From NCBI GenBank assembly GCA_017656335.1, contig JACDOA010000001.1:310001-374000 (forward strand): a stretch of DNA of 64,000 bases, in the 5' to 3' direction. The position numbers and the translations under genes are program-made. Origin of the DNA: Thermosipho sp. (in: thermotogales) (GTDB lineage Bacteria; Thermotogota; Thermotogae; Thermotogales; Fervidobacteriaceae). Below, piece by piece: positions 6,914 through 54,520 of the stretch. The notes under the pieces are model-generated. The model was not told the DNA's origin. It ran no database searches and saw only the letters and a program-made list of their open reading frames with translations. Numbering within the stretch: the stretch's first letter is position 1; each line of letters opens with the position of its first letter.

Positions 6914-8209
6914 ATGTATGATCTAGGTATTTTAAATGGAAAGTTGTATTTGGATGGAATTTTTATAAATGCAAATGTATATGTAAAATCCGGAAAAATC
7001 GTAGATATCTCCACAAATTATTTGCAGTGTAAAAAAGAAGTAGATGCAACCGGGAAGTTTGTTCTTCCCGGTTTTATTGATCCACATGTTCATTTTGAAC
7101 TAAACTCGGGAAAATATACCTCAGTAGATGATTTTGAAAGTGGAAGTATTTCCGCATTATTTGGTGGGGTTACAACAATTATTGATTTTTTAGATCCCAT
7201 TTCGAAACTAGAAGAATTAGAATATGCTTTTAAAAATCGTTTGTTTTCTGCTAAAAAATCATACGTTGATTATTCTTTTCACACTACTTTGGGAAATTTT
7301 AGTGGTGATTTAAGTGCTTTATTTAAAGAAATAAAGGAATTTGGCACAAAATCAGTAAAGGTTTTTACTGCTTATTCTTCAAGTAACCGAAGAACAAATG
7401 ATAAATTAATGTTTGAATTGTTTAAATTGTCAAAGATACATAAAATTCCAATTTTAATTCACGCTGAAAATGAAGATATGATCGTTGAAAATGTTCCAAT
7501 AAAAATGCACTCAAAGGCAAGACCTGAAATTTCTGAGATTTCCGAAATAATAAAGATTGCTGAATTTTTAAACCAAACAAAAGGAACTGCATATATTGTG
7601 CACACAACATGTGGAACCTCGATAGAAGAAGTAAAAAATAGATTTGATAATATTTTAAACAACAACTTATTCTTCGAAAGTTGCCCCCATTATTTTTATT
7701 TTGATGACAGTGTGTATGAAACTCAAAGTGGATATCTGTATGCAATGACTCCACCGCTTAGAAGCAGACGTGAAAAAGAAAAACTAAAAAATAACATTGA
7801 TAAGGTTTTTTCAATTGGAACTGACCATTGCTCATTTAATAAAAAGGATAAACGTAAAAGAAAAACGGGAAATCTTCCAATGGGAATTGGTGGAATTGAA
7901 CACTCTTTTGTTTTAACCTATTCTTTATTTGGCAAGAAAATAATTGAAAAATTCACAATAAATCCCGCAAAATTTTTTGGACTTTATCCACAAAAAGGAA
8001 CTTTATTACCCGGGGCAGATGCTGATATTGTAATATTTGATCCAAATTATAAAGGTATAATAAAAGAATCACATACTAAATCTGACTATGATCTATATCT
8101 GGGTATTCAAATAAAGGGAAAGATCGAAAAAGTATTTAAAAATGGAGCTTTAATAATTGAAGATGACAAATTAGTTAGAAAAAATAAAGGTAATTTTATC
8201 AGGAGGTAG
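6914..8209 (+). CDS. dihydropyrimidinase/hydantoinase-like amidohydrolase
   Basis: 431-aa cyclic amidohydrolase that would hydrate a ring such as a hydantoin or dihydropyrimidine to a carbamoyl amino acid. All expected metal ligands are visible: H58 and H60 (GFIDPHVHFE), carboxylated K149 (SVKVFTAY), H183 (LIHAEN), H230 (YIVHTTCG) and D304 (IGTDHCSF). Somewhat shorter than typical D-hydantoinases. It starts 2 bp after YgeW and its product would be a plausible substrate for the YgeY or YgeW neighbours. A perfect terminator-like hairpin lies inside codons 45-54 (see 7048-7077). Confidence 0.88.
   Translation: MYDLGILNGKLYLDGIFINANVYVKSGKIVDISTNYLQCKKEVDATGKFVLPGFIDPHVHFELNSGKYTSVDDFESGSISALFGGVTTIIDFLDPISKLEELEYAFKNRLFSAKKSYVDYSFHTTLGNFSGDLSALFKEIKEFGTKSVKVFTAYSSSNRRTNDKLMFELFKLSKIHKIPILIHAENEDMIVENVPIKMHSKARPEISEISEIIKIAEFLNQTKGTAYIVHTTCGTSIEEVKNRFDNILNNNLFFESCPHYFYFDDSVYETQSGYLYAMTPPLRSRREKEKLKNNIDKVFSIGTDHCSFNKKDKRKRKTGNLPMGIGGIEHSFVLTYSLFGKKIIEKFTINPAKFFGLYPQKGTLLPGADADIVIFDPNYKGIIKESHTKSDYDLYLGIQIKGKIEKVFKNGALIIEDDKLVRKNKGNFIRR
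7048..7077 (+). other. intragenic terminator-like hairpin in hydantoinase gene
   Basis: Perfect 10-bp inverted repeat AACCGGGAAG (7048-7057) and CTTCCCGGTT (7064-7073) around TTTGTT, followed by TTAT. It lies within the codons for TGKFVLPGF next to the metal-binding HxH. The codons used (ACC, GGG, CCC) are uncommon in the surrounding genes. Confidence 0.6.
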
Positions 8210-30383: not shown

Positions 30384-31582
30384 ATCTAAAAAAATATGCA
30401 GAGGTAGTTCTTAAAATTGGTACTAATCTTCAAAAAGATCAGATTCTTTTTGTACGAGCCCCTATTGATGCTCGTGAATTTGTTGAAGTAATAACTGATA
30501 TTGCTTTTGATTTAGGAGCGCACAATGTATATATCAAATGGAATGCTGAAACAATTAATAAAATTATTTTAAAGAAGGCCTCTGAAAAAGCTTTACAAGA
30601 GGTTCCTTCATGGGAAATTAATGCTTCTGAAGAATTATTAAATAAAAAAGCGGCATTTTTAACAATTATAGGAGGAGATCCTGATATATATAAAGATGTT
30701 CCTCCACACAAAATTGGTACTACTATTAAAGCCCGAAACATGGCAATGAAGGAAATATCGAAAAGGATAATGTCAAATGAAATAAGTTGGTGTGTTGTTG
30801 CATATCCTACAGAAAAATGGGCAAAAAAAGTCCTCGGCGAAGACGGAACAAAAGAACAATTATTAGAATTGATTTTGAAAGCTTCAAGAATATATGGTGA
30901 TCCAATTGAAAATTGGAAAAATCATATTTCTAATTTACAAAAAATAACTGATTTTCTCAACAAAATGCAATTTGACTATCTACATTATGAAGGTCCTACA
31001 ATAGATTTAAAAGTGGGCCTTCCAGAAAATCATATCTGGTTATCCGGTTCTCAGGATAATTTAGATGGAGTAACTTTTGTTCCAAATATTCCAACTGAAG
31101 AAATATTTACAGCTCCTCACAGAAAAAAAATAAACGGAGTTTTGAGAAACAGCTTACCATTAGTTTATTCTGGAAATATAATTGATAAGTTCGAGCTTGA
31201 ATTTAAAGATGGAAAAGTAATAAATTATCATGCAGAAATAGGAGAAGAAATTTTGAAAACAATTCTTGAAACAGATGATGGAGCTAGATTCTTAGGCGAA
31301 GTCGCATTAGTTCCTGTTGATTCTCCAATTTATCAAATGAAAAAGATTTTTTACAACACTTTATTCGATGAAAATGCAGCCTCTCATTTCGCTTTCGGAA
31401 GAGCATATACAAGTTGTATTAAAGATGGAGAAAAAATGGGAGAAGATGAACTCAAAAATGCTGGATTAAATGTAAGTATTACACATGTAGATTTTATGAT
31501 AGGAAACGAAGAAATGAAAGTAACAGGTTATAAAAATGGAGAAAAAGTTATTATTATGGAAAATGGAAAATGGGCAATTTAA
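30380..31582 (+). CDS. M29 family aminopeptidase (thermophilic metalloprotease)
   Basis: 400-aa AmpS/aminopeptidase T-type enzyme releasing N-terminal residues from peptides with a dinuclear metal site. Recognisable features are the GLPENHIWLSGSQD region, the FVPNIPTEEIFTAPHR motif near residue 240 with metal-binding Glu, and HFAFGRAY and THVDFMIG near the C-terminus. Full length for the family. Start overlaps the aldo/keto reductase stop by 4 bp (ATGA), and a terminator follows directly at 31581. Confidence 0.92.
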   Translation: MNLKKYAEVVLKIGTNLQKDQILFVRAPIDAREFVEVITDIAFDLGAHNVYIKWNAETINKIILKKASEKALQEVPSWEINASEELLNKKAAFLTIIGGDPDIYKDVPPHKIGTTIKARNMAMKEISKRIMSNEISWCVVAYPTEKWAKKVLGEDGTKEQLLELILKASRIYGDPIENWKNHISNLQKITDFLNKMQFDYLHYEGPTIDLKVGLPENHIWLSGSQDNLDGVTFVPNIPTEEIFTAPHRKKINGVLRNSLPLVYSGNIIDKFELEFKDGKVINYHAEIGEEILKTILETDDGARFLGEVALVPVDSPIYQMKKIFYNTLFDENAASHFAFGRAYTSCIKDGEKMGEDELKNAGLNVSITHVDFMIGNEEMKVTGYKNGEKVIIMENGKWAI

Positions 31583-31607
31583 AGGGCAGAAAATTCTGCC
31601 CTTTTTT
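31581..31607 (+). terminator. terminator/attenuator between aminopeptidase and RNase H genes
   Basis: Stem AAAGGGCAGAA / TTCTGCCCTTT around AA, followed by TTT and directly by the AGGAGG of the next gene. It may end the upstream operon while leaving some read-through into the RNase H gene. Confidence 0.75.
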
Positions 31608-43367: not shown

Positions 43368-44295
43368 AATGAAAATATTTTCTGGAAATGCCAATAAACA
43401 ATTAGCTTTAAAGGTTGCCGATTATATAGGCACAAGGCTTTCTGATTGTGAAATTGGTAGATTTGCGGATGGAGAAATAAATGTTAAAATTGGAGAAACT
43501 GTAAGAGGGCATGATACATTTATTATTCAACCAACTTGTCCACCGGTTAATGAAAATTTGATGGAGCTACTTATAATGATAGATGCATTAAAAAGAGCCT
43601 CAGCTAATACTATCGCTGTTGTAATTCCATACTATGGTTATGCAAGACAAGATAGAAAGGCAAAAGGAAGAGATCCAATTACAGCGAAACTTGTTGCTAA
43701 TTTATTAACTATAGCAGGCGCCACTAGAGTTATGACTGTTGATTTGCATTCTGAACAGATTCAAGGATTTTTTGACATTCCCCTTGATAACTTACTTTCT
43801 TTTCCGATTTTCACAAAAATTTTAAAAGAAGACAAAGTAATTGATGAAGATTTTGTTGTTGTTTCTCCTGATGTTGGAGGAGTTAAAAGGGCTCGACAAT
43901 TTGCTGAAAGGCTTGGCGGACCACTTGCAATACTAGACAAAAGAAGACCAAAAGACAATGTTGCCGAAATTTTAAATATCATTGGTGATGTAGAAGGCAA
44001 AACTGCTATAATAGTAGATGATATCGTTGATACTGCAAGATCACTTGTCAATTCTGCTAGTGCATTAATTGAAAAAGGAGCCAAACGCGTAATTGCTTGT
44101 ATTACTCATCCAGTTCTTTCTGACAATGCAGTTAATAGAATTGAAGAATCTGTAATAGAAAAAATCTACATATCAGACTCGATTTACAAAAATAATTTAC
44201 CCGAAAAATTTAAAGTTGTTTCACTAGCTCCACTTCTTGGTGAGGCAATTATGAGAGTACGTAAAAATCTTTCAGTAAGTATTTTATTTAGATAA
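43348..44295 (+). CDS. prs: ribose-phosphate pyrophosphokinase
   Basis: 315-aa PRPP synthetase: ribose-5-phosphate + ATP to PRPP. Motifs FADGEINVKI, YGYARQDRKAKGRDPI (catalytic flexible loop), VDLHSEQIQGFFDIP, and the PRPP signature AIIVDDIVDTARSL. ATG at 43348 with GGGAGG, 20 bp inside glmU. glmU-prs-rplY-pth is a common order in many bacteria, which supports the calls. Confidence 0.96.
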   Translation: MQLTKNEMKIFSGNANKQLALKVADYIGTRLSDCEIGRFADGEINVKIGETVRGHDTFIIQPTCPPVNENLMELLIMIDALKRASANTIAVVIPYYGYARQDRKAKGRDPITAKLVANLLTIAGATRVMTVDLHSEQIQGFFDIPLDNLLSFPIFTKILKEDKVIDEDFVVVSPDVGGVKRARQFAERLGGPLAILDKRRPKDNVAEILNIIGDVEGKTAIIVDDIVDTARSLVNSASALIEKGAKRVIACITHPVLSDNAVNRIEESVIEKIYISDSIYKNNLPEKFKVVSLAPLLGEAIMRVRKNLSVSILFR

Positions 44296-44296
44296 C

Positions 44297-44314
44297 AATA
44301 ATAATAATAATAAT
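44297..44314. repeat. (AAT)6 trinucleotide repeat between prs and rplY
   Basis: Six AAT units immediately after the prs stop, within a fully AT leader of rplY. It keeps the leader unstructured; length variation could alter spacing but not frame. Confidence 0.9.
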
Positions 44315-44349
44315 AAAACCCATAAAATAAAAAAAAGGAGGTAAAAACT

Positions 44350-45009
44350 ATGGAACATAGGCTAGAGGGCCTTACTAGATCTGTTGTTGGTAAGAAGAGA
44401 GCTGTTAGAAGGCTCAGAAAACAAGGTTTTGTGCCTGGTGTAGTATATGGCCCAGATATTGAACCACTTTCTATTTCCATTAAAAAAACAGATTTATTAA
44501 AACTTCTTCATGAAGTAACAGAATCCAGTGTTATAAAGCTCACAGTAAAAGACGAAAATGGAAAAGAAGTTTTGTCTCATGACGTTTTTATTAAAAACGT
44601 TCAATATGACAAGTTAACTGATGAAGTAAGACATATTGACTTTTATGTTCCTGAAAAAGGGCACAAAATGTCAATCAATATTCCAATTGAATTTACTGGT
44701 AAACCAATTGGACTTGAAAAAGGTGGAGTTCTTGAAATAATTCATCATGAATTACCAGTTGAAACTCTTCCTTCAGTTGTAGTTGAAAAATTTGAAATTG
44801 ATATTTCAAATCTTGAATTAGGAGAATCAATACATGTTGGTGATTTAAAACTTCCTGAAGGAATGACAACAGAACTTCCAGAAGATGAACCTCTTGTATC
44901 TGTTGCAGCCCCTCGAGGTCTTGAGGTTGAAGAAGAAACTGCTGAAACTGAAGAAGAAGAAAGTGTAGAACCTGAAGTTATTGAAAAAGGAAAAAAGGAG
45001 GAAGAATAA
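44350..45009 (+). CDS. rplY: 50S ribosomal protein L25 (TL5/CTC type)
   Basis: 219 aa. The N-terminal L25 domain binding 5S rRNA (about 1-90) includes [20 protein letters not shown] and PGVVYGP. The TL5 C-terminal beta domain (about 95-185) has [15 protein letters not shown] very acidic tail follows. ATG at 44350 after AAAGGAGG. Its 3' end overlaps the possible TTG start of pth. Confidence 0.95.
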
Positions 45010-45559
45010 TATAATCCTTGTAATTGGCCTTGGTAATCCTGGCCCACGTTATGCCTTTACACGGCATAACGTGGGTTTTATGTTTCTTGACAGGCTAGCA
45101 AATAATTGGGAAAAAAGGTACAACTTTAAGGAGTCGAAAATAAAAATAGAGAATTCAAAAATTTTACTTGTAAAACCTATGACTTACATGAACTTAAGTG
45201 GAGAAATTTTCAATTATATCAATCCTGAAGATTTTGATGATATAATTGTTGTGTATGATGATGTTAGCATTCCCTTAGGAAAAATAAGAATACGAAAAAA
45301 AGGCTCTGACGGTGGACATAACGGTTTAAAATCTATTATATCTTACATTGGAGAACAGTTCCCTAGAATTAGAATAGGTGTTGGTCCAAAACCGAAAGAA
45401 ATAGATCTAGTAAACTTTGTGCTATCTGAATTTTCCAACAAAGAATTAGTAATTTTAGATAAAATTCTTAATTTAGCAATTGAAGCATTAAACTGTATTA
45501 TAACTGAAGGAATAAACAAAGCTATGAGCAAATACAATTCTATAGAGGTGACTGAATGA
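44981..45559 (+). CDS. pth: peptidyl-tRNA hydrolase
   Basis: Up to 192-aa esterase that recycles peptidyl-tRNA. [20 protein letters not shown] carries the catalytic His of the HNVG motif; [25 protein letters not shown] and [12 protein letters not shown] follow. The start is uncertain. A TTG at 44981 is the only standard codon in frame but has no ribosome-binding site, while GGAGG at 44997-45001 points to the ATA at 45011, which would give the usual short N-terminus. A 13-bp perfect hairpin lies at 45043-45075, inside the first codons. Its stop overlaps the next gene by 4 bp. Confidence 0.93.
45043..45079 (+). other. intragenic terminator-like hairpin in pth
   Basis: Perfect 13-bp arms CCCACGTTATGCC (45043-45055) and GGCATAACGTGGG (45063-45075) around TTTACAC, followed by TTTT. 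It is coded by [12 protein letters not shown] using CGT, CGG, GCC and GTG codons, while Arg in nearby genes is almost always AGA. Confidence 0.75.
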
Positions 45560-45990
45560 ATTGCTCGAGATGTGGAAAACCAGTAGAGTATGTTATCAAA
45601 GCAGATATTGATGGGGTTGAAAAAAGTATATCATTTTGTAAAAAGTGTTTATTAGAAACACTTAAATATGATGTTTCCAATTATATTAGTGCTGGTGTAG
45701 AGTTATTATCAGCACATATTGTATTTGCGGAAGAAATCAAAACTAATTATTCTTCAAAAAATCTTGTTATCAATAACTTGGAAATATTAACTCTAATGCC
45801 ATTAGCAATTCAAACTGTGCTTTTTAAAGGGGATGAACTTACAAAAGCAAGAATGTTAAAAGAAATCAATAGTAGACAGATTTTTTTCTTAAAACAAAGG
45901 CTGAAAAATGCTTTAAAATCTGAAAATTATGAATTAGCTAACATCTTAAAAAAGCAAATAAATCAACTTGAAAATATGTCTGAAATTTGA
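45556..45990 (+). CDS. McsA-like zinc-finger/UVR-motif protein
   Basis: 144 aa. An N-terminal CxxC (MNCSRCGKP) and second CxxC (SFCKKCLLE) form a zinc-binding ribbon. The C-terminal 35 residues ([20 protein letters not shown]) form a UVR-type helical hairpin. McsA-like proteins are adaptors of McsB/ClpC in Gram-positives; here no mcsB is nearby, so the role is open. It is translationally coupled to pth (ATGA). Confidence 0.7.
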
Positions 45991-46077
45991 TTACATTTTA
46001 TTTTTGCTTTCTTCCTCCTTTTTGCTTTGCTTTTCTAATTCTTTCCTAAAATGTTAAAATTTAATATGGTGAATAAG

Positions 46078-47697
46078 ATGATTACAATTTTTATAATTGC
46101 GTTTATTTTTGTTTTTACTATATTGCCCGCTTTATATGCCGTTTTATCGGCATTTATTTCTAATAATGGATTTACAACAGCTTTCATATTTCAGACACTC
46201 AAGGCTTCTTATTTTTATCAAAGTCTTTTAATTTCTTTTTCATTTGGAGCATTTGTAACACTTATTGGAACATTTATGGCTTTTCTTATTGCTAAATGGA
46301 TTAAAAAGTACAATTTTATTGTTTTTCTTTTATCTGTTGTTTGGATAATTCCAACATATATTGGTATTCCCATTTGGAGATCTGTTTTAGAAAAAATCCC
46401 TTTTATTAACCTTTATTCTAACCCATTTCACACTTTTCTATCTGCATCAATAATTTCTAGCTGGTTCATATTACCATTTTCAGCTTTTTTTATCTATTCT
46501 GCCATTGAAAAAATTAACAAAAAATTTCATGAAGCATTTTCGCTAGATTCTAATAACTCTACAATTTACTACTTCAAAATTGTATTTCCTAATATTAAAA
46601 ATGAATTTTATTCTATCATGCTATTAAATTTCATTAATGCTTTCAAAGATTTCCAAACACCTTGGCTTCTAACCGAAGGAGGAGCCCCCACTAAATTTGG
46701 CATTACTTCTAAAGGAATAATAGGTTCAACTACCAATCTTGAAGTTCTGATATACAAATTTTTTAATTCTGAAACAAACATTAGTGAAATAGGTGCAATA
46801 TCAACTTTAACAATTGCATTTATTTCATTTTTGATTTTTCTTTGGTACAAATTAAAAAACAGACAATTAAAATATTCTGAAACAAAAGTTCCATTTTTTA
46901 GATTTAATTTCTTGAGTATCTTTGAAAAATTTTTAATAATTCTCTGGATTTTTTCAATTATACTTTTATTATTTTCAATTTTCCATCTATCTCTTTCAGA
47001 TTCAACAAATATTTTTATAAAAGGTAATTTTACAACAAATAATTTTAAATTTGTTATCAATGATAATTTTTTAATAGCAATAAAAAATTCAATGTTAATA
47101 GCCTTTACAACTGGTCTTTTTACTTCTATTCTTTCTTCTTTCTTTGCTTTTAGGCTTTCATTTTATAAAAGTGGAGAAAAACTCATTTCTTTTTTGAATG
47201 CATTAAAAATTATTACAGGAATTCATTTACTTGTGTTTATCTTTTATATAATGGCCAAAATAAACTTATTAAATACTTTAACTTCTATAATTATTCTTTC
47301 TGTTTCACGTGAACTTCCATTAGGTGCTTTATTGTTTTATTCTTTCTTTAAAGAATTCCCAAAAGAATTGCTATATTTGTCAAAATTAGATGGTATTTCA
47401 AAAAACAAATTTTTCTGGAGAATTTTAATTCCCAATAGTATTCCTGTTTTAATTTCCATTTTTCTTTTAGGATTTTTGGCAAGTTTCAATGCTTTTTTAT
47501 CACCTTTGATTTTATTATTTGATGAGTCAAAATATCCCGTTAGTATAAAATTATTCAATTACGTTGGAACAATCAGTAATCATTATCCTGAATGGAATTA
47601 TTTTGCGGCAGGTTCAGTCATTAATTTATTTCTATTATCCTTAATAATCTTTTCGCTGAGAAAATTTATTAACTTTTCATATTTAAAAGATTTATAG
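46078..47697 (+). CDS. ABC transporter permease, two fused permease domains
   Basis: About 539 aa, about 12 membrane segments, two binding-protein-dependent permease domains in one chain. Both halves contain an EAA-like coupling loop: HEAFSLDSNNSTIYYFKIVF near residue 155 and SKLDGISKNKFFWRILIPNS near 445. The frame opens at 46051, but GGTGA before the ATG at 46078 makes this the likely start. The solute-binding protein follows by 12 bp; no ATPase gene is adjacent, so it must borrow one. Substrate unknown; carbohydrate, thiamine or iron are all possible for this architecture. Confidence 0.8.
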   Translation: MITIFIIAFIFVFTILPALYAVLSAFISNNGFTTAFIFQTLKASYFYQSLLISFSFGAFVTLIGTFMAFLIAKWIKKYNFIVFLLSVVWIIPTYIGIPIWRSVLEKIPFINLYSNPFHTFLSASIISSWFILPFSAFFIYSAIEKINKKFHEAFSLDSNNSTIYYFKIVFPNIKNEFYSIMLLNFINAFKDFQTPWLLTEGGAPTKFGITSKGIIGSTTNLEVLIYKFFNSETNISEIGAISTLTIAFISFLIFLWYKLKNRQLKYSETKVPFFRFNFLSIFEKFLIILWIFSIILLLFSIFHLSLSDSTNIFIKGNFTTNNFKFVINDNFLIAIKNSMLIAFTTGLFTSILSSFFAFRLSFYKSGEKLISFLNALKIITGIHLLVFIFYIMAKINLLNTLTSIIILSVSRELPLGALLFYSFFKEFPKELLYLSKLDGISKNKFFWRILIPNSIPVLISIFLLGFLASFNAFLSPLILLFDESKYPVSIKLFNYVGTISNHYPEWNYFAAGSVINLFLLSLIIFSLRKFINFSYLKDL

Positions 47698-47709
47698 GAG
47701 GTGCAAAAC

Positions 47710-48981
47710 ATGAAGAAAGGAATAGTTTTTCTAGTGCTTTTTATTTCACTAATGGCTTTTGCAATTCAGGTAAATATCAACGGTTCTTATCAGGAAATTA
47801 ATATTGACAAAGCAGAATTTGTAGCAATCGAATTACTTCCCCCTTTCCAAGATATTCCTTCAATTAAAGTCATTTCAGACTCAGGAACTTTTGATGTTGA
47901 CGAATATACCATTTTTAAGAATATTAATGGAGAAATTTTTTACAAAAATTATAAAGTTAAATGCATCGAAATTTCTGCAAAATTACTAGAAAAAAAAGAT
48001 AGGGAAATCTGGATATCCTGGGAAGGTACCGATTATATAAAAAATTACCTTGAAACCTATGCAAAATTATTTGATTTACCTATAAAAGTATTGGAACTTC
48101 CTAAAATTTCAACAAAATTAGTTACTTTGAGTAAAGCTGGAGCCAGACTCCCAGATGTTGTTATGGTTAGCGCTTTTGATTTCCCAACATATAAAGAACT
48201 GGGAATTTTAAAAGATAATACTTATCTTCCATTTTATTACGACACACAAGTTGTCTATGTTAATTCTAATTTAGTAAAATTAAATAAACTTGCATGGACA
48301 ATTGATGAATTAGAAAAAATATCCAAAAATTTAATTGAAAAAGGTCTTAAACCAGTTGCAATTAATCCTATTAGTGCATACTGGTTTTCAACTTTTTTAA
48401 TGGGAAACGGCAAAATTCCACTAGTAAATGAAAAATTAATTTTAACTGATAATTCAACTTGGAAGTCAATTGAACTTATCAAAAAATGGTATGAAAATAA
48501 ATTTTTCGATTTTAGTTTTCTTAACAGAGATGCACAAGTAGCAGCCTTTTTAAAAGGGGAGGTTGGTTTTCTTTTTCAAGGATCATTTTTAATGCCTAAA
48601 ATTCTAGGAAAACTTGACAATGTTTCAGTTCTACCACTTCCAAGCTTAATGATCCCTTTCAAAGATTACAAAGGATTTGCTACAACAAAAGACGGGAATA
48701 TTAAATTTACTAAATGGCTAGTTTCTTTCCTAAAAAATCCTCTTTTTGAAGAATATTTCTCAAAAAATTATATAAAATTTTTTGATAATCATATTTCTGA
48801 TGAAATACCATTTAAAGACACTTTTGTCTATACTTCTAAAATTGCTCAGCCAATCCCTTTTGATGGAAAATATGTAAAATTACACAAAAATATAAAAGAT
48901 ACCTTAATTTTGATATTAAATGGTTCAATATCAGTAGAAGAAGGCACAAAAAAATTGGAGGAAATTGTAAACAATGAATAA
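47710..48981 (+). CDS. ABC transporter extracellular solute-binding protein (family 1 type)
   Basis: About 423 aa. Signal peptide of residues 1-18 (MKKGIVFLVLFISLMAFA). An extra 80-95 residue beta-rich segment precedes the binding-protein fold, which starts around REIWISWEGTDYIKNYLETY. Later features are LPDVVMVSAFDFPTYKELG and GEVGFLFQGSFLMPKIL, as in sugar-binding proteins. The start is ATG 47710, preceded by AGGAGG, rather than an in-frame GTG at 47701. It overlaps the kinase-like gene by 8 bp. Confidence 0.85.
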   Translation: MKKGIVFLVLFISLMAFAIQVNINGSYQEINIDKAEFVAIELLPPFQDIPSIKVISDSGTFDVDEYTIFKNINGEIFYKNYKVKCIEISAKLLEKKDREIWISWEGTDYIKNYLETYAKLFDLPIKVLELPKISTKLVTLSKAGARLPDVVMVSAFDFPTYKELGILKDNTYLPFYYDTQVVYVNSNLVKLNKLAWTIDELEKISKNLIEKGLKPVAINPISAYWFSTFLMGNGKIPLVNEKLILTDNSTWKSIELIKKWYENKFFDFSFLNRDAQVAAFLKGEVGFLFQGSFLMPKILGKLDNVSVLPLPSLMIPFKDYKGFATTKDGNIKFTKWLVSFLKNPLFEEYFSKNYIKFFDNHISDEIPFKDTFVYTSKIAQPIPFDGKYVKLHKNIKDTLILILNGSISVEEGTKKLEEIVNNE

Positions 48982-49468
48982 CTTTATTATTTGGATTACC
49001 GGAAAAAGTAAGACAGGAAAATCAACAATTGCTAAAAAGCTGAAAGAGTACTTTGATTCTTTAAATAGAAATTCATATGTGCTAGAAGGAAATTTAGTAT
49101 TAAAAATTTTTGATGATATAGGTTTTGATACTTTTTATATTAACGAGAGGATACGGAGGCTTGGTATCCTCTCTTATATTTTAGCTGATGCAGGTATTAT
49201 TCCAATTGTTCCATCTGTTTCTCCAATTAGAAGAGAAAGAGTAAAAATCAAAAAAAATTCTAAATTTCCATTTATCGAAATCTATTTAAAATGCCCTGAA
49301 AATATTAGAAATAAGAGACATACAAAATTAGATGATTTTACTGAATTTGTTAATGCCATTTATTCTCCACCAGAGAAACCTGATATAGAAATTGATACTT
49401 CTATTCACAATATCGAAGAAAGTGTTAAAATTATTATTGAATATCTAAAAGTACACAAACATATATAA
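48974..49468 (+). CDS. adenylylsulfate kinase-like P-loop protein
   Basis: 164 aa. Walker A GKSKTGKST (residues 10-18), then the APS-kinase-like INERIRRLGILSYILADAGI (related to the 'R.EN.RR.GEVA.LFADAG' region) and VPSVSPIRRERVKI. So it resembles CysC, but with a non-standard P-loop (APS kinase usually has GLSGAGKTT) and no sulfate-assimilation genes nearby. It might phosphorylate another adenylylated or sugar substrate brought in by the co-transcribed transporter. A perfect hairpin lies in the codons for ERIRRLGILS. Confidence 0.7.
   Translation: MNNFIIWITGKSKTGKSTIAKKLKEYFDSLNRNSYVLEGNLVLKIFDDIGFDTFYINERIRRLGILSYILADAGIIPIVPSVSPIRRERVKIKKNSKFPFIEIYLKCPENIRNKRHTKLDDFTEFVNAIYSPPEKPDIEIDTSIHNIEESVKIIIEYLKVHKHI
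49145..49180 (+). other. intragenic terminator-like hairpin in APS-kinase-like gene
   Basis: Perfect 10-bp arms GAGAGGATAC (49145-49154) and GTATCCTCTC (49164-49173) around GGAGGCTTG, followed by TTATATT. Codons used include AGG, CGG, AGG, ATC and CTC, unusual for the region. Confidence 0.6.
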
Positions 49469-49480
49469 AGGGAGAATAAT

Positions 49481-52252
49481 ATGAATTATATAATAGTCAG
49501 AGGAGCAAAAGTACATAATTTAAAGAATATAACTGTTAAAATACCCAAAAATACATTAACTGTTATTACTGGAATGTCTGGCTCTGGAAAGAGTTCTCTT
49601 GCTCTTGACACAATATATGTTGAAGGGCAAAGACGCTATCTTGAAAGTCTTTCATCATATGCAAGGCAATTTATTGGTGAATTAAAAAAACCTGATGTTG
49701 AAAGTATTGAAGGATTATCACCTTCAATTGCAATTGATCAAAAAAGCGTTTCACATAATCCTAGGTCAACAATAGGAACTGTAACTGAGATATATGATTA
49801 CCTTAGAGTTTTATACTCTCAAATTGGCACAGCTTATTGTTACAAATGTGGAAGACCATTAGAATCTAAAAGCGTTGATGAAATTGTAAATGATATTTTG
49901 GAAACATTTGAGAACAAAAAAATTTACATTGAAGCACCTATTGCAACAGAAAAAAAGGGTACATTTAAAGATACTTTTGAAAAATTCTTAAAAAAAGGAT
50001 ATTTAAGAGTAGAAATTGATGGAGAAACATATAGATTAGAGGAAGTTCCTGAATTGAATAAAAATGTAAGACATAACATAAACCTTGTAATTGATAGATT
50101 AATTTTAACCAAAGATGATGAAATCAAACACAGAATATTTGATTCAGTTGAACTTGCACTAAAAGAAGGAAATGGATTTGTAATTATTAAAGATATTGAA
50201 AACAATGAAACAAAGTTTTATTCTGAAAAAATGATGTGTCCAATTTGTGGTATTTCTATGCCAGAAATAAACCCAAAATTATTCTCATTTAATAGCCCAT
50301 ATGGTGCTTGCCCAAGATGTCATGGATTGGGATTCACTTTGGAGGTCGATGAGAAAAAAGTAATAGACTTTGACAAACCTGTTTTAGAAGCCATTAAAAT
50401 CGGGCATAAAGAAAATGGTTGGATTCCAAGAAGAATTGCTAGAATAATCAATCAATATGGTGGAAATTTTAATACACCATTTAAAAATCTTCCTGAAGAG
50501 ACTCAAGAAGCCATTTTGTACGGCACTTCCTATTTTGATGGTTTAGTCGAAATATTACGCCAAAGATATGACGAGTATACTTCAGAAGATTCTAGGCAAT
50601 GGCTTGTAAATAAATTTTTCGTTGAAAAACAATGTCATGAATGTAATGGTCAACGTCTTCGTAAAGAGGCCTTAGCTGTAAAAATCAAAGGTTTGAATAT
50701 CATGGAATTTACAAACCTTCCTATCTCTAAAGAACTAGATTTTGTAAAAAATTTAAAGAATGTACTTTCTTCAAAAAAACTAGAAATTGTTCAGGAATTA
50801 CTAGATGAACTTGAAAAAAGGCTTCAATTTTTAAATGAAGTTGGTTTAGGGTATTTAACACTTTCTAGAAATGTTAAAACCTTATCTGGAGGAGAAGCAC
50901 AAAGAATTCGGCTTGCAACACAAATTGGTTCCGGTCTTACTGGTGTAACTTATGTTTTAGACGAGCCAACAATTGGACTTCATCAAAGTGATAATGAAAG
51001 GTTAATTAAAACGCTTAAAAAATTAAGAGACTTAGGTAACACCGTAATAGTAGTTGAACATGATGAAGATATAATAAGAAATGCTGACTATATTATTGAT
51101 ATTGGACCTGCTGCTGGAATAAACGGAGGAAAGGTTATTTATCAAGGCCCCGTTTCTGAAATTGAAAAAGTACTTTCAAAATCAATTACCGCTCAATATT
51201 TAAAGGGAATTAGAAAAATTCCTGTTCCAAAATCCCGAAGAAAAGGAACTGGAAAATTTCTTACCATCAAGGGGGCAAGGCATAATAATCTAAAAAATCT
51301 AAACGTTTCCTTCCCCCTTGGTACATTTATTTGTATAACAGGTGTTTCTGGATCCGGTAAAAGTTCCCTTGTAATTGACACAATATATCCAGCTCTTATG
51401 AATAACTTACATAAATCCAATTTAAATGAAGGAGAATATGATAGCATTGAAGGTTTACAATTTATTGATAAAGTCATTGCTATTGATCAATCTCCTATTG
51501 GAAGAACTCCAAGAAGTAATCCTGCAACATATACAAAGGTATTTGATGAAATAAGAAAACTTTTTTCTATGACACCTGAAGCAAAAGCAAGAGGATACTC
51601 TGCTGGAAGATTTAGTTTTAATGTAAAAGGTGGAAGATGTGAACATTGTAAAGGGCAAGGAATTATTAAAGTAGAAATGTTATTTTTACCCGATGTTTAT
51701 GTTGAATGCGAAGTTTGTAAAGGTAAAAGGTATAATAGTGAAACATTAGAAGTTACTTTTAAAAATAAAAATATTTCTGATATACTTGAAATGACAGTAG
51801 ATGAAGCTCTTGAATTTTTCAAAAACATACCTTCAATTAGTACAACTCTTCAAGTTTTGGCTGATGTTGGACTTGGATATATTAAACTTGGTCAACCAGC
51901 AACTACTCTATCAGGTGGAGAAGCCCAACGTGTAAAATTAGCATCCGAACTTAAAAAACGTTCTACTGGAAATACTTTATACATTTTAGATGAACCAACT
52001 GTTGGTTTGCATTTTGAAGATGTTAAAAAACTTATTGACGTTTTAAATAGATTAGTAGACAAAGGAAATACTGTAATTGTTATTGAACATAATCTGGATG
52101 TTATTAAAAATGCTGATTACGTTATTGATCTCGGTCCAGTTGGTGGTGATGATGGTGGATACATTGTTGCTAAGGGTACTCCTGAAGAAATCGCTAAATC
52201 AAAAAACTCTCTAACGGGAAAATACTTGAAAAAAATTTTATCGGGAGGTTAA
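49481..52252 (+). CDS. uvrA: excinuclease ABC subunit A
   Basis: 923-aa damage-recognition ATPase of nucleotide excision repair. First ATPase: Walker [25 protein letters not shown]; zinc-finger cysteines in CPICG and CPRCHGLG; signature [16 protein letters not shown]. Second ATPase: Walker [10 protein letters not shown], zinc finger CEHCKGQG...CEVCKGKR, signature [15 protein letters not shown] and [15 protein letters not shown]. Full length. Start at 49481, 12 bp after the kinase-like gene, so in the same transcript. Confidence 0.97.
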
Positions 52253-52253
52253 A

Positions 52254-53105
52254 ATGGAAGAAATTCTTGAAAATTTCAAAGAATATCTCGAACACGTTAG
52301 AAGGCACTCAGACAATACAGTTAAGGCATATTTAAAAGATGTAAGAAAACTACTTCAATATTTAAACAAAGATGTTAAAAATATATCCAGAAAAGACATT
52401 GAAGAATTTTTAAAAGCATTATCCAAAGGAGAATTAATTGGTGTTAGTCCAAAGGAAACTACTATTTCAAGATATATTTCAAGTCTTTCTACTTTTTTCA
52501 ATTACCTTGATTTGTCTGGTGTTGTTTCTTCTAATCCCATGGAAAGAATTAGGCATCCTAGAATTAGAAGAAAAATACCTGATTTTTTAACTGAAGATGA
52601 GGTCAAAAATCTAATTGAATCTTTTGATGAAGAAAACGAATTAAAACAGAAAACTGCTATTTCTCTACTTTACTATGGTGGACTTAGAATCAGTGAGTTA
52701 TGCTCAATGAGAGTTTCAGATATATCATTTTTGCCACCATTTTTAAGAGTTGAAATGGGAAAAGGAAGAAAAGATAGACTTGTTCCTTTACCTGAAAGAG
52801 TTGTACCACTTCTTAAAAAATATATTGACTCATTTGAGCCAAAAATCTATGTTTTTGAAAATGGCAAGAAACATGTTCATCCTTCAACAGTATTTAGATG
52901 GGTTAAAGAAGGAGTTAAAAGAGCAAATATTAAAAAAGATGTACATCCTCACACTTTAAGGCATTCATATGCAACTCATTTAATTAGAAGGGGAGTTAAT
53001 ATTAAAGTAGTTCAAGAGCTTTTAGGCCATACCAATTTAAGTACAACAAGTATTTACCTTCACGTAGCTGATCAGGAAAAATTTGACGCCGTAAAAAATT
53101 TATAA
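52254..53105 (+). CDS. tyrosine recombinase XerC/XerD/XerA family
   Basis: 283-aa chromosome-dimer resolution recombinase. The N-terminal SAM-like domain is about 1-95. The catalytic domain carries R145 (GLRISEL), K170 (MGKGRKDR), H233 and R236 (HPHTLRHSYATHLIRRG), H259 (LLGHTNLSTT) and Y268 (SIYLHV). Start 1 bp after uvrA; not associated with any mobile element, so a housekeeping Xer is likely. A strong terminator follows. Confidence 0.93.
   Translation: MEEILENFKEYLEHVRRHSDNTVKAYLKDVRKLLQYLNKDVKNISRKDIEEFLKALSKGELIGVSPKETTISRYISSLSTFFNYLDLSGVVSSNPMERIRHPRIRRKIPDFLTEDEVKNLIESFDEENELKQKTAISLLYYGGLRISELCSMRVSDISFLPPFLRVEMGKGRKDRLVPLPERVVPLLKKYIDSFEPKIYVFENGKKHVHPSTVFRWVKEGVKRANIKKDVHPHTLRHSYATHLIRRGVNIKVVQELLGHTNLSTTSIYLHVADQEKFDAVKNL

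Positions 53106-53212: not shown

Positions 53213-54520
<1,308 letters not shown>

Follow-up and report, generated by a model that had tools for sequence, protein, structure and literature searches.

The DNA analysed here, a stretch of 64,000 nucleotides referred to as the window, carries a run of four genes in the order two-domain ABC permease, solute-binding protein, APS-kinase-like protein (apsK) and uvrA, all on the plus strand (Table 1). The start of apsK overlaps the end of the solute-binding-protein gene by 8 nt. Inside apsK, beginning at +171 of the gene and 163 nt past the solute-binding-protein stop codon, lies a hairpin with a T-rich tail. It is thus placed within the coding sequence of the APS kinase domain and not in non-coding DNA, which is the usual, if not obligatory, place of terminators. 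The ApsK protein remains under the cut-offs of the NCBIfam adenylyl-sulfate kinase models. The permease gene unites both permease domains in one protein of 548 residues, and the gene that follows it encodes a weakly matching binding protein.

Table 1. Features of the window discussed in the text.
Feature	Position	Strand	Basis or remark
Hairpin in dihydroorotase-like gene	7048..7073	+	Tail TTATTG; 136 nt past upstream stop
Amidohydrolase (dihydroorotase-like) gene, encloses the hairpin at 7048..7073	6914..8209	+	PF01979, 3.8e-25
rplY-like gene, 5' of pth	44350..45009	+	ORF; upstream of pth in 31/31 loci
pth (peptidyl-tRNA hydrolase), encloses hairpin	44981..45559	+	PF01195, 3.3e-60
pth hairpin	45043..45075 (widest 45041-45077)	+	13-bp perfect stem, 15 pairs with G-U
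Two-domain ABC permease gene	46051..47697	+	PF00528, 2 stretches
Solute-binding-protein gene, 5' of apsK	47701..48981	+	PF01547, ORF, spacing
APS-kinase-like gene (apsK), hairpin host	48974..49468	+	PF01583, 1.4e-22, residues 3-118; hairpin = residues 58-67
apsK hairpin, 10-bp stem and 9-nt loop	49145..49173	+	Sequence, fold, scans
T-rich tail of apsK hairpin, 7/9 T	49174..49182	+	Sequence, scan
uvrA, 3' of apsK	49481..52252	+	NF001503, 1425.9 bits

The perfect stem, short loop and T-rich tail described in the original prediction are all present. The left arm, GAGAGGATAC (49145-49154), pairs without mismatch with the right arm, GTATCCTCTC (49164-49173), across the loop GGAGGCTTG, and five of the ten pairs are G-C. 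In the tail, TTATATTTT, six of the first eight positions are T and two A interrupt the run. The structure is written in the codons GAG AGG ATA CGG AGG CTT GGT ATC CTC TCT, which encode the peptide ...ERIRRLGILS... The RNA folds with a predicted energy of -18.9 kcal/mol (z -3.47), and none of 200 dinucleotide shuffles was as low. At 70 °C the prediction is -7.0 kcal/mol, to be compared with -6.9 to -11.2 kcal/mol for the other terminator-like hairpins of the window (pth excluded).

The window contains eight perfect stems that reach 10 bp or more and include 5 or more G-C pairs, ordinary intergenic terminators among them, against a mean of 0.1 in 20 dinucleotide shuffles. Near the start of a minus-strand gene, which we take to be enolase-like, an 11-bp hairpin without T tail occurs at 54384-54415. 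With the peptide and the codon usage of the genome held fixed, the probability of a 10-bp stem in the exact register of apsK is 0.0038, and that of at least 9 bp is 0.026, so that the apsK hairpin on its own is not decisive. An interspersed repeat or uptake signal was rejected, since the palindrome is found at a single site in the genome when up to 3 mismatches are allowed. A riboswitch or other known RNA family was likewise discarded, as Rfam over positions 44000-53000 gave no family at threshold and one sub-threshold match, located elsewhere and on the other strand.

To follow the hairpin in relatives, a search of 61 genomes with the ApsK protein gave matches in 20. The comparison comprises eight orthologues with the same neighbours, four from the genus itself and four from a sister genus; 12 more distant matches were left out. 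The end of a binding-protein gene and the start of uvrA also flank apsK in the other orthologues examined. Conservation of the pairing in relatives, named as a check in the original prediction, held for two of the four genus members, namely the genome of the window (G000, with the window at C1:310001-374000) and G002, in which the stem is a perfect 9 bp and the tail has four T in eight positions; it failed for G001 and G003, where the stem is missing. In two of the four sister-genus orthologues, G007 and G012, a different hairpin of 13 bp with a T-rich tail lies at +90, 80 nt closer to the start of the gene. Neither a hairpin nor a replacement was found in G001, G003, G014 and G010 from 200 nt 5' of apsK through into uvrA. 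Folding energies agree with this picture: none of 60 synonymous shuffles was as low in G000, G007 and G012, G002 lies inside the shuffled range (4/60 as low), and the remaining four are ordinary. The exact apsK hairpin is therefore not conserved, yet four of the eight orthologues hold a T-tailed hairpin in apsK at either of two sites, against 10/400 in synonymous shuffles.

The apsK hairpin is a modest representative of a wider class, made up of T-tailed coding-strand hairpins that lie less than about 200 nt into genes abutting or overlapping their upstream gene. A first scan of 444 kb of the same genome (380 kb plus the window) returned nine T-tailed coding-strand hairpins, all beginning 61-207 nt into the ORF, while shuffles yielded 2.8 along entire genes; under laxer rules, 14 of 19 fell within the first 200 nt, where shuffles gave 1.6. 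Within these 200 nt, T-tailed hairpins numbered seven against 0.3 in shuffles, with one more in which an A-rich head accompanied the T tail. Untailed hairpins were not enriched (3 vs 2.9 shuffled), and general early-gene structure was for this reason rejected as an explanation in G000. No T-tailed hairpin was seen mid-gene in G000, against 1.3 in shuffles.

The final detector trims outer A-T pairs, and a tight junction is defined as a same-strand gene that abuts or overlaps its upstream gene. At the 242 tight junctions of G000 it found nine hairpins, that of apsK among them, against 0.50 in synonymous-codon shuffles. It found none beyond the first ~200 nt of the tight-junction genes, none in 56 genes behind a divergent neighbour and one at 89 loose junctions. 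Earlier detectors gave 11 vs 0.7 and 6 vs 0.35 at tight junctions; the tilS hairpin, a match of an earlier detector, does sit behind a divergent neighbour. An excess was also obtained in G003, which belongs to the genus of G000 (10 vs 0.12 at 256 tight junctions), and in G005 (6 vs 0.12 at 123). G031 was less clean: an earlier detector gave 2 vs 1.15, and the final one 8 vs 0.50 at 194 tight junctions with 8 further hairpins elsewhere in those genes vs 2.00. The effect was weak in G022 and G056 (3 vs 0.38 each, at 214 and 185 tight junctions). In the Escherichia coli control (300 kb, 85 tight junctions), the final detector gave 2 vs 1.50 and an earlier one 2 vs 0.40; one of these matches is, we presume, a miscalled folP start. 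Untailed hairpins in the first 200 nt are about 2-fold up in G003, G005, G022 and G056 and 1.7-fold in G031, which is unexplained, and these five genomes show some excess of antisense hairpins too.

In nine of ten G000 genes checked, a Pfam domain encloses the hairpin (prepilin peptidase, CbiQ, AcpS, RecG, amidohydrolase, M29 peptidase, Pth, TilS and APS kinase), and in RadA the hairpin lies between two domains. Gene starts were taken from the longest frame, so some class members may be spacer terminators within miscalled starts, as is likely for the 31570 ORF in G000 and may be so for a thiI-like gene in G003. At the former, positions 31570-31604 hold a strong hairpin followed by a T tract and then AGGAGG, probably a spacer terminator. 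In the CbiQ-like gene (L032:16123-16854), the hairpin GGGGATATATTGTCCCC with the tail CTTTTTTTCT lies 144 nt past the stop codon of a 730-codon upstream gene.

The simplest objection is that the codons of ERIRRLGILS just happen to pair and that the apsK hairpin is unrelated to a real class. A probability of 0.0038 for 10 bp in register is tolerable over many genes, and half of the orthologues lack a hairpin. However, the apsK hairpin has the features of the class (tight junction, position +171, sense orientation, T tail) in a genome where nine were seen and 0.50 expected, and a separate hairpin occurs in the same gene of two sister-genus orthologues. Chance is made unlikely by the enrichment of the class rather than by the apsK hairpin alone, and we regard a coincidence at this gene as unlikely.

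The strongest member of the class lies in pth, behind a gene that we take to be rplY-like (ribosomal protein L25). This hairpin is located 32-33 nt past the rplY stop codon and has the tail TTTTATGTTT. Of the 60 genomes in which pth was matched, 31 were compared at this junction (30 loci plus G022). In 21 of them pth encloses the stem CCACGTTATGCC...GGCATAACGTGG or a near variant; in all 21 there is no spacer, and the GLGN motif follows the rplY stop codon after 11-18 nt and the start of the hairpin after 27-35 nt. The ten genomes without a pth hairpin, which represent two genera of one family, so that the swap may amount to one or two events and not ten, all have 75-171 nt between the rplY stop and GLGN and a T-tailed hairpin in this spacer (six found by the detector and four by eye, in G015, G013, G009 and G018). 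Such mutual exclusion is to be expected if the rplY terminator has shifted into pth and is the hairpin seen there. This swap is the best evidence for the class.

The pth stem is nearly invariant. Ten of its 15 pairs never vary, and one pair is changed on both sides (in G006, with R to H in the protein), a compensatory change matched by 45 of 500 shuffles. As the covariation counts are weak, a covarying RNA motif was dropped as an argument, which rests instead on the spacer swap. The paired codons remain nearly letter-identical across three families and between genomes with a G+C content of 30% and 47%, and the spacer lineages have another peptide at the pth site (GPRYA vs GExYx in most). The joint need for peptide and pairing apparently leaves little freedom, which may account for the invariance of the stem.

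A nearly invariant palindrome at pth could also be expected of DNA read by a protein, as an operator or uptake signal. Against this, the apsK sequence is single copy, the stems of the other members have no common sequence, and the T tail is one-sided in seven of the eight enriched G000 members; we consider a protein-read palindrome extremely improbable. The site shortly past the upstream stop would moreover suit a hairpin that stabilises the end of the upstream message, as a barrier to 3' exonucleases or as a cleavage site, while transcription goes on unstopped. Such an element of mRNA processing or stability is very unlikely in our view, because the enrichment needs a T tail, which is no requirement of stability hairpins, and because the hairpin is swapped with T-tailed intergenic terminators at rplY-pth.

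Three further genes with embedded hairpins were followed across relatives. The hairpins that the genome of the window has in the prepilin peptidase gene (L030:14298-14999) and in radA (L037:18362-19684) recur in most relatives, with unlike stems. For radA, a search of 46 genomes gave a T-tailed hairpin at +102 to +158 in 21 of 30 loci, with 17 distinct arms. By eye, six more were recognised (G012, G007, G018, G027, G029 and G031), in which outer A-T pairs had hidden the tail or pairing was imperfect; among the 30 loci, detector and eye found no hairpin in G003, G020 and G022. For prepilin peptidase, the same number of genomes yielded a hairpin in 20 of 30 loci, with 12 distinct arms; in G014 the detector had picked up another hairpin, at +135. 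Inspection by eye added seven more, in which the loop was longer or the tail weaker (G003, G002, G006, G010, G012, G007 and G018), and none was found by detector or eye in G025, G030 and G022 among the 30 loci. These additions by eye in both genes lie outside the shuffle controls. The dihydroorotase-like gene holds its hairpin in seven of the ten closest loci, with a stem but too few T in G001 and no hairpin in G010 and G023; in G006 a different stem occupies the same place.

Synonymous shuffles reproduced such hairpins in 73/1500 cases for radA, 36/1500 for prepilin peptidase and 10/500 for the dihydroorotase-like gene. Coding-strand matches at nt 300-500 were absent from all three (0/30, 0/30 and 0/10, respectively), and antisense T-tailed matches amounted to 15/30, 3/30 and 0/10. 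Retention of the hairpin, or its replacement by an equivalent, is much better among relatives for pth, radA and prepilin peptidase than for apsK.

The terminator of the upstream gene is the best reading of a T-tailed hairpin that stands behind an abutting gene and gives way to a spacer terminator where there is a spacer. Judged from sequence comparison, the apsK hairpin is probably a partial intrinsic terminator of the solute-binding-protein gene, lying inside the overlapping apsK and lowering the expression of apsK and uvrA. Its place within coding sequence would follow from the overlap of the genes, which leaves no spacer. A polymerase leaving the solute-binding-protein gene would make the hairpin and its T-rich tail some 163-200 nt later. 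Some polymerases would stop there, ending the mRNA inside apsK, and the remainder would continue into apsK and uvrA, with plentiful transporter mRNA and less apsK and uvrA mRNA as the outcome. We infer that polymerase really stops at the hairpin, that it does so in part, and that the hairpins of apsK and pth act alike. Partial termination should be the rule, or else further promoters exist, since pth and other downstream genes need to be expressed. Against the terminator reading stand the patchy occurrence of the apsK hairpin among orthologues, its interrupted T tail, the weak copy in G002, the thin compensatory change at pth, the starts in the class that may be miscalled and the antisense T-tailed reading at radA. 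The terminator-like character originally proposed for the hairpin is nevertheless well supported by the class, in which T-tailed sense hairpins are enriched only near starts at tight junctions, and by the rplY-pth swap. The further proposal that it could tune uvrA is too narrow if uvrA alone is meant, as the hairpin would lower apsK together with uvrA.

The apsK hairpin resembles the intrinsic (Rho-independent) terminators that TransTermHP scores (PMC1852404) in its G-C-containing stem, short loop, T-rich tail, coding-strand orientation and short distance past a stop codon; it differs from the usual ones in sitting among the codons of the following gene. The same paper describes sequences of terminator type within genes as relatively rare, and they served as the background of the predecessor method. 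Partial read-through that lowers downstream genes of one operon would be shared with the leaky intra-operon terminators of Rend-seq work. Such terminators set gene stoichiometry and usually lie between genes, whereas the signal here overlaps conserved codons. Attenuators and riboswitches also govern downstream genes through a terminator hairpin; unlike them, the apsK hairpin matches no Rfam family at threshold, and the final detector found no class hairpins behind divergent neighbours in G000.

Action within a translated stretch would be possible if polymerase runs ahead of the ribosome. Thermotogota are classed among runaway-transcription phyla in the accessible text of PMC13323073, which cites its reference 10 for this. 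Runaway transcription, as in Bacillus subtilis and presumably in Thermotogota, would let a hairpin fold in a translated stretch ahead of the ribosome, and that text makes no mention of terminators inside downstream genes. PMC4824070, as far as its available part goes, describes nearly full repression in E. coli of a terminator that lies shortly past a translated gene. Alternatively, termination might occur only while translation of the downstream gene is lacking over its first 50-60 codons, making the hairpin a translation-gated attenuator and a polarity checkpoint. The checked members do sit within the translated frame, and almost only behind an abutting gene, where translation is likely passed on. 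Lagging ribosomes in a runaway phylum make sensing of the ribosome less likely (PMC13323073, same text), and at rplY-pth an untranslated spacer terminator fills the same role. Such gating appears doubtful to us, and we prefer a terminator of the upstream gene.

In the literature consulted, mostly listings and few subscription papers, no account was found of terminators placed as a system inside the gene that follows. A study of the Thermotoga maritima transcriptome predicted terminators without using annotation, according to its available part (PMC3636130). Intrinsic terminators themselves are long known; what would be new is their systematic embedding in the downstream gene, and the interest lies in the class more than in the apsK hairpin alone. 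We lean towards the view that it is routine across the order for terminators to be incorporated in the first coding stretch of the gene that follows, with about ten codons doing double duty for a very long time and pth as the extreme case. Embedded signals of this kind would escape gene finders and terminator finders that leave coding sequence out. Terminators in translated genes would work only if polymerase outruns the ribosome, and they may thus allow runaway transcription outside Bacillus to be tested at the level of sequence. If true, the class would account for the unusual codons chosen, and the synonymous sites kept invariant, where genes such as pth begin, and compact operons would systematically set unequal expression without any spacer.
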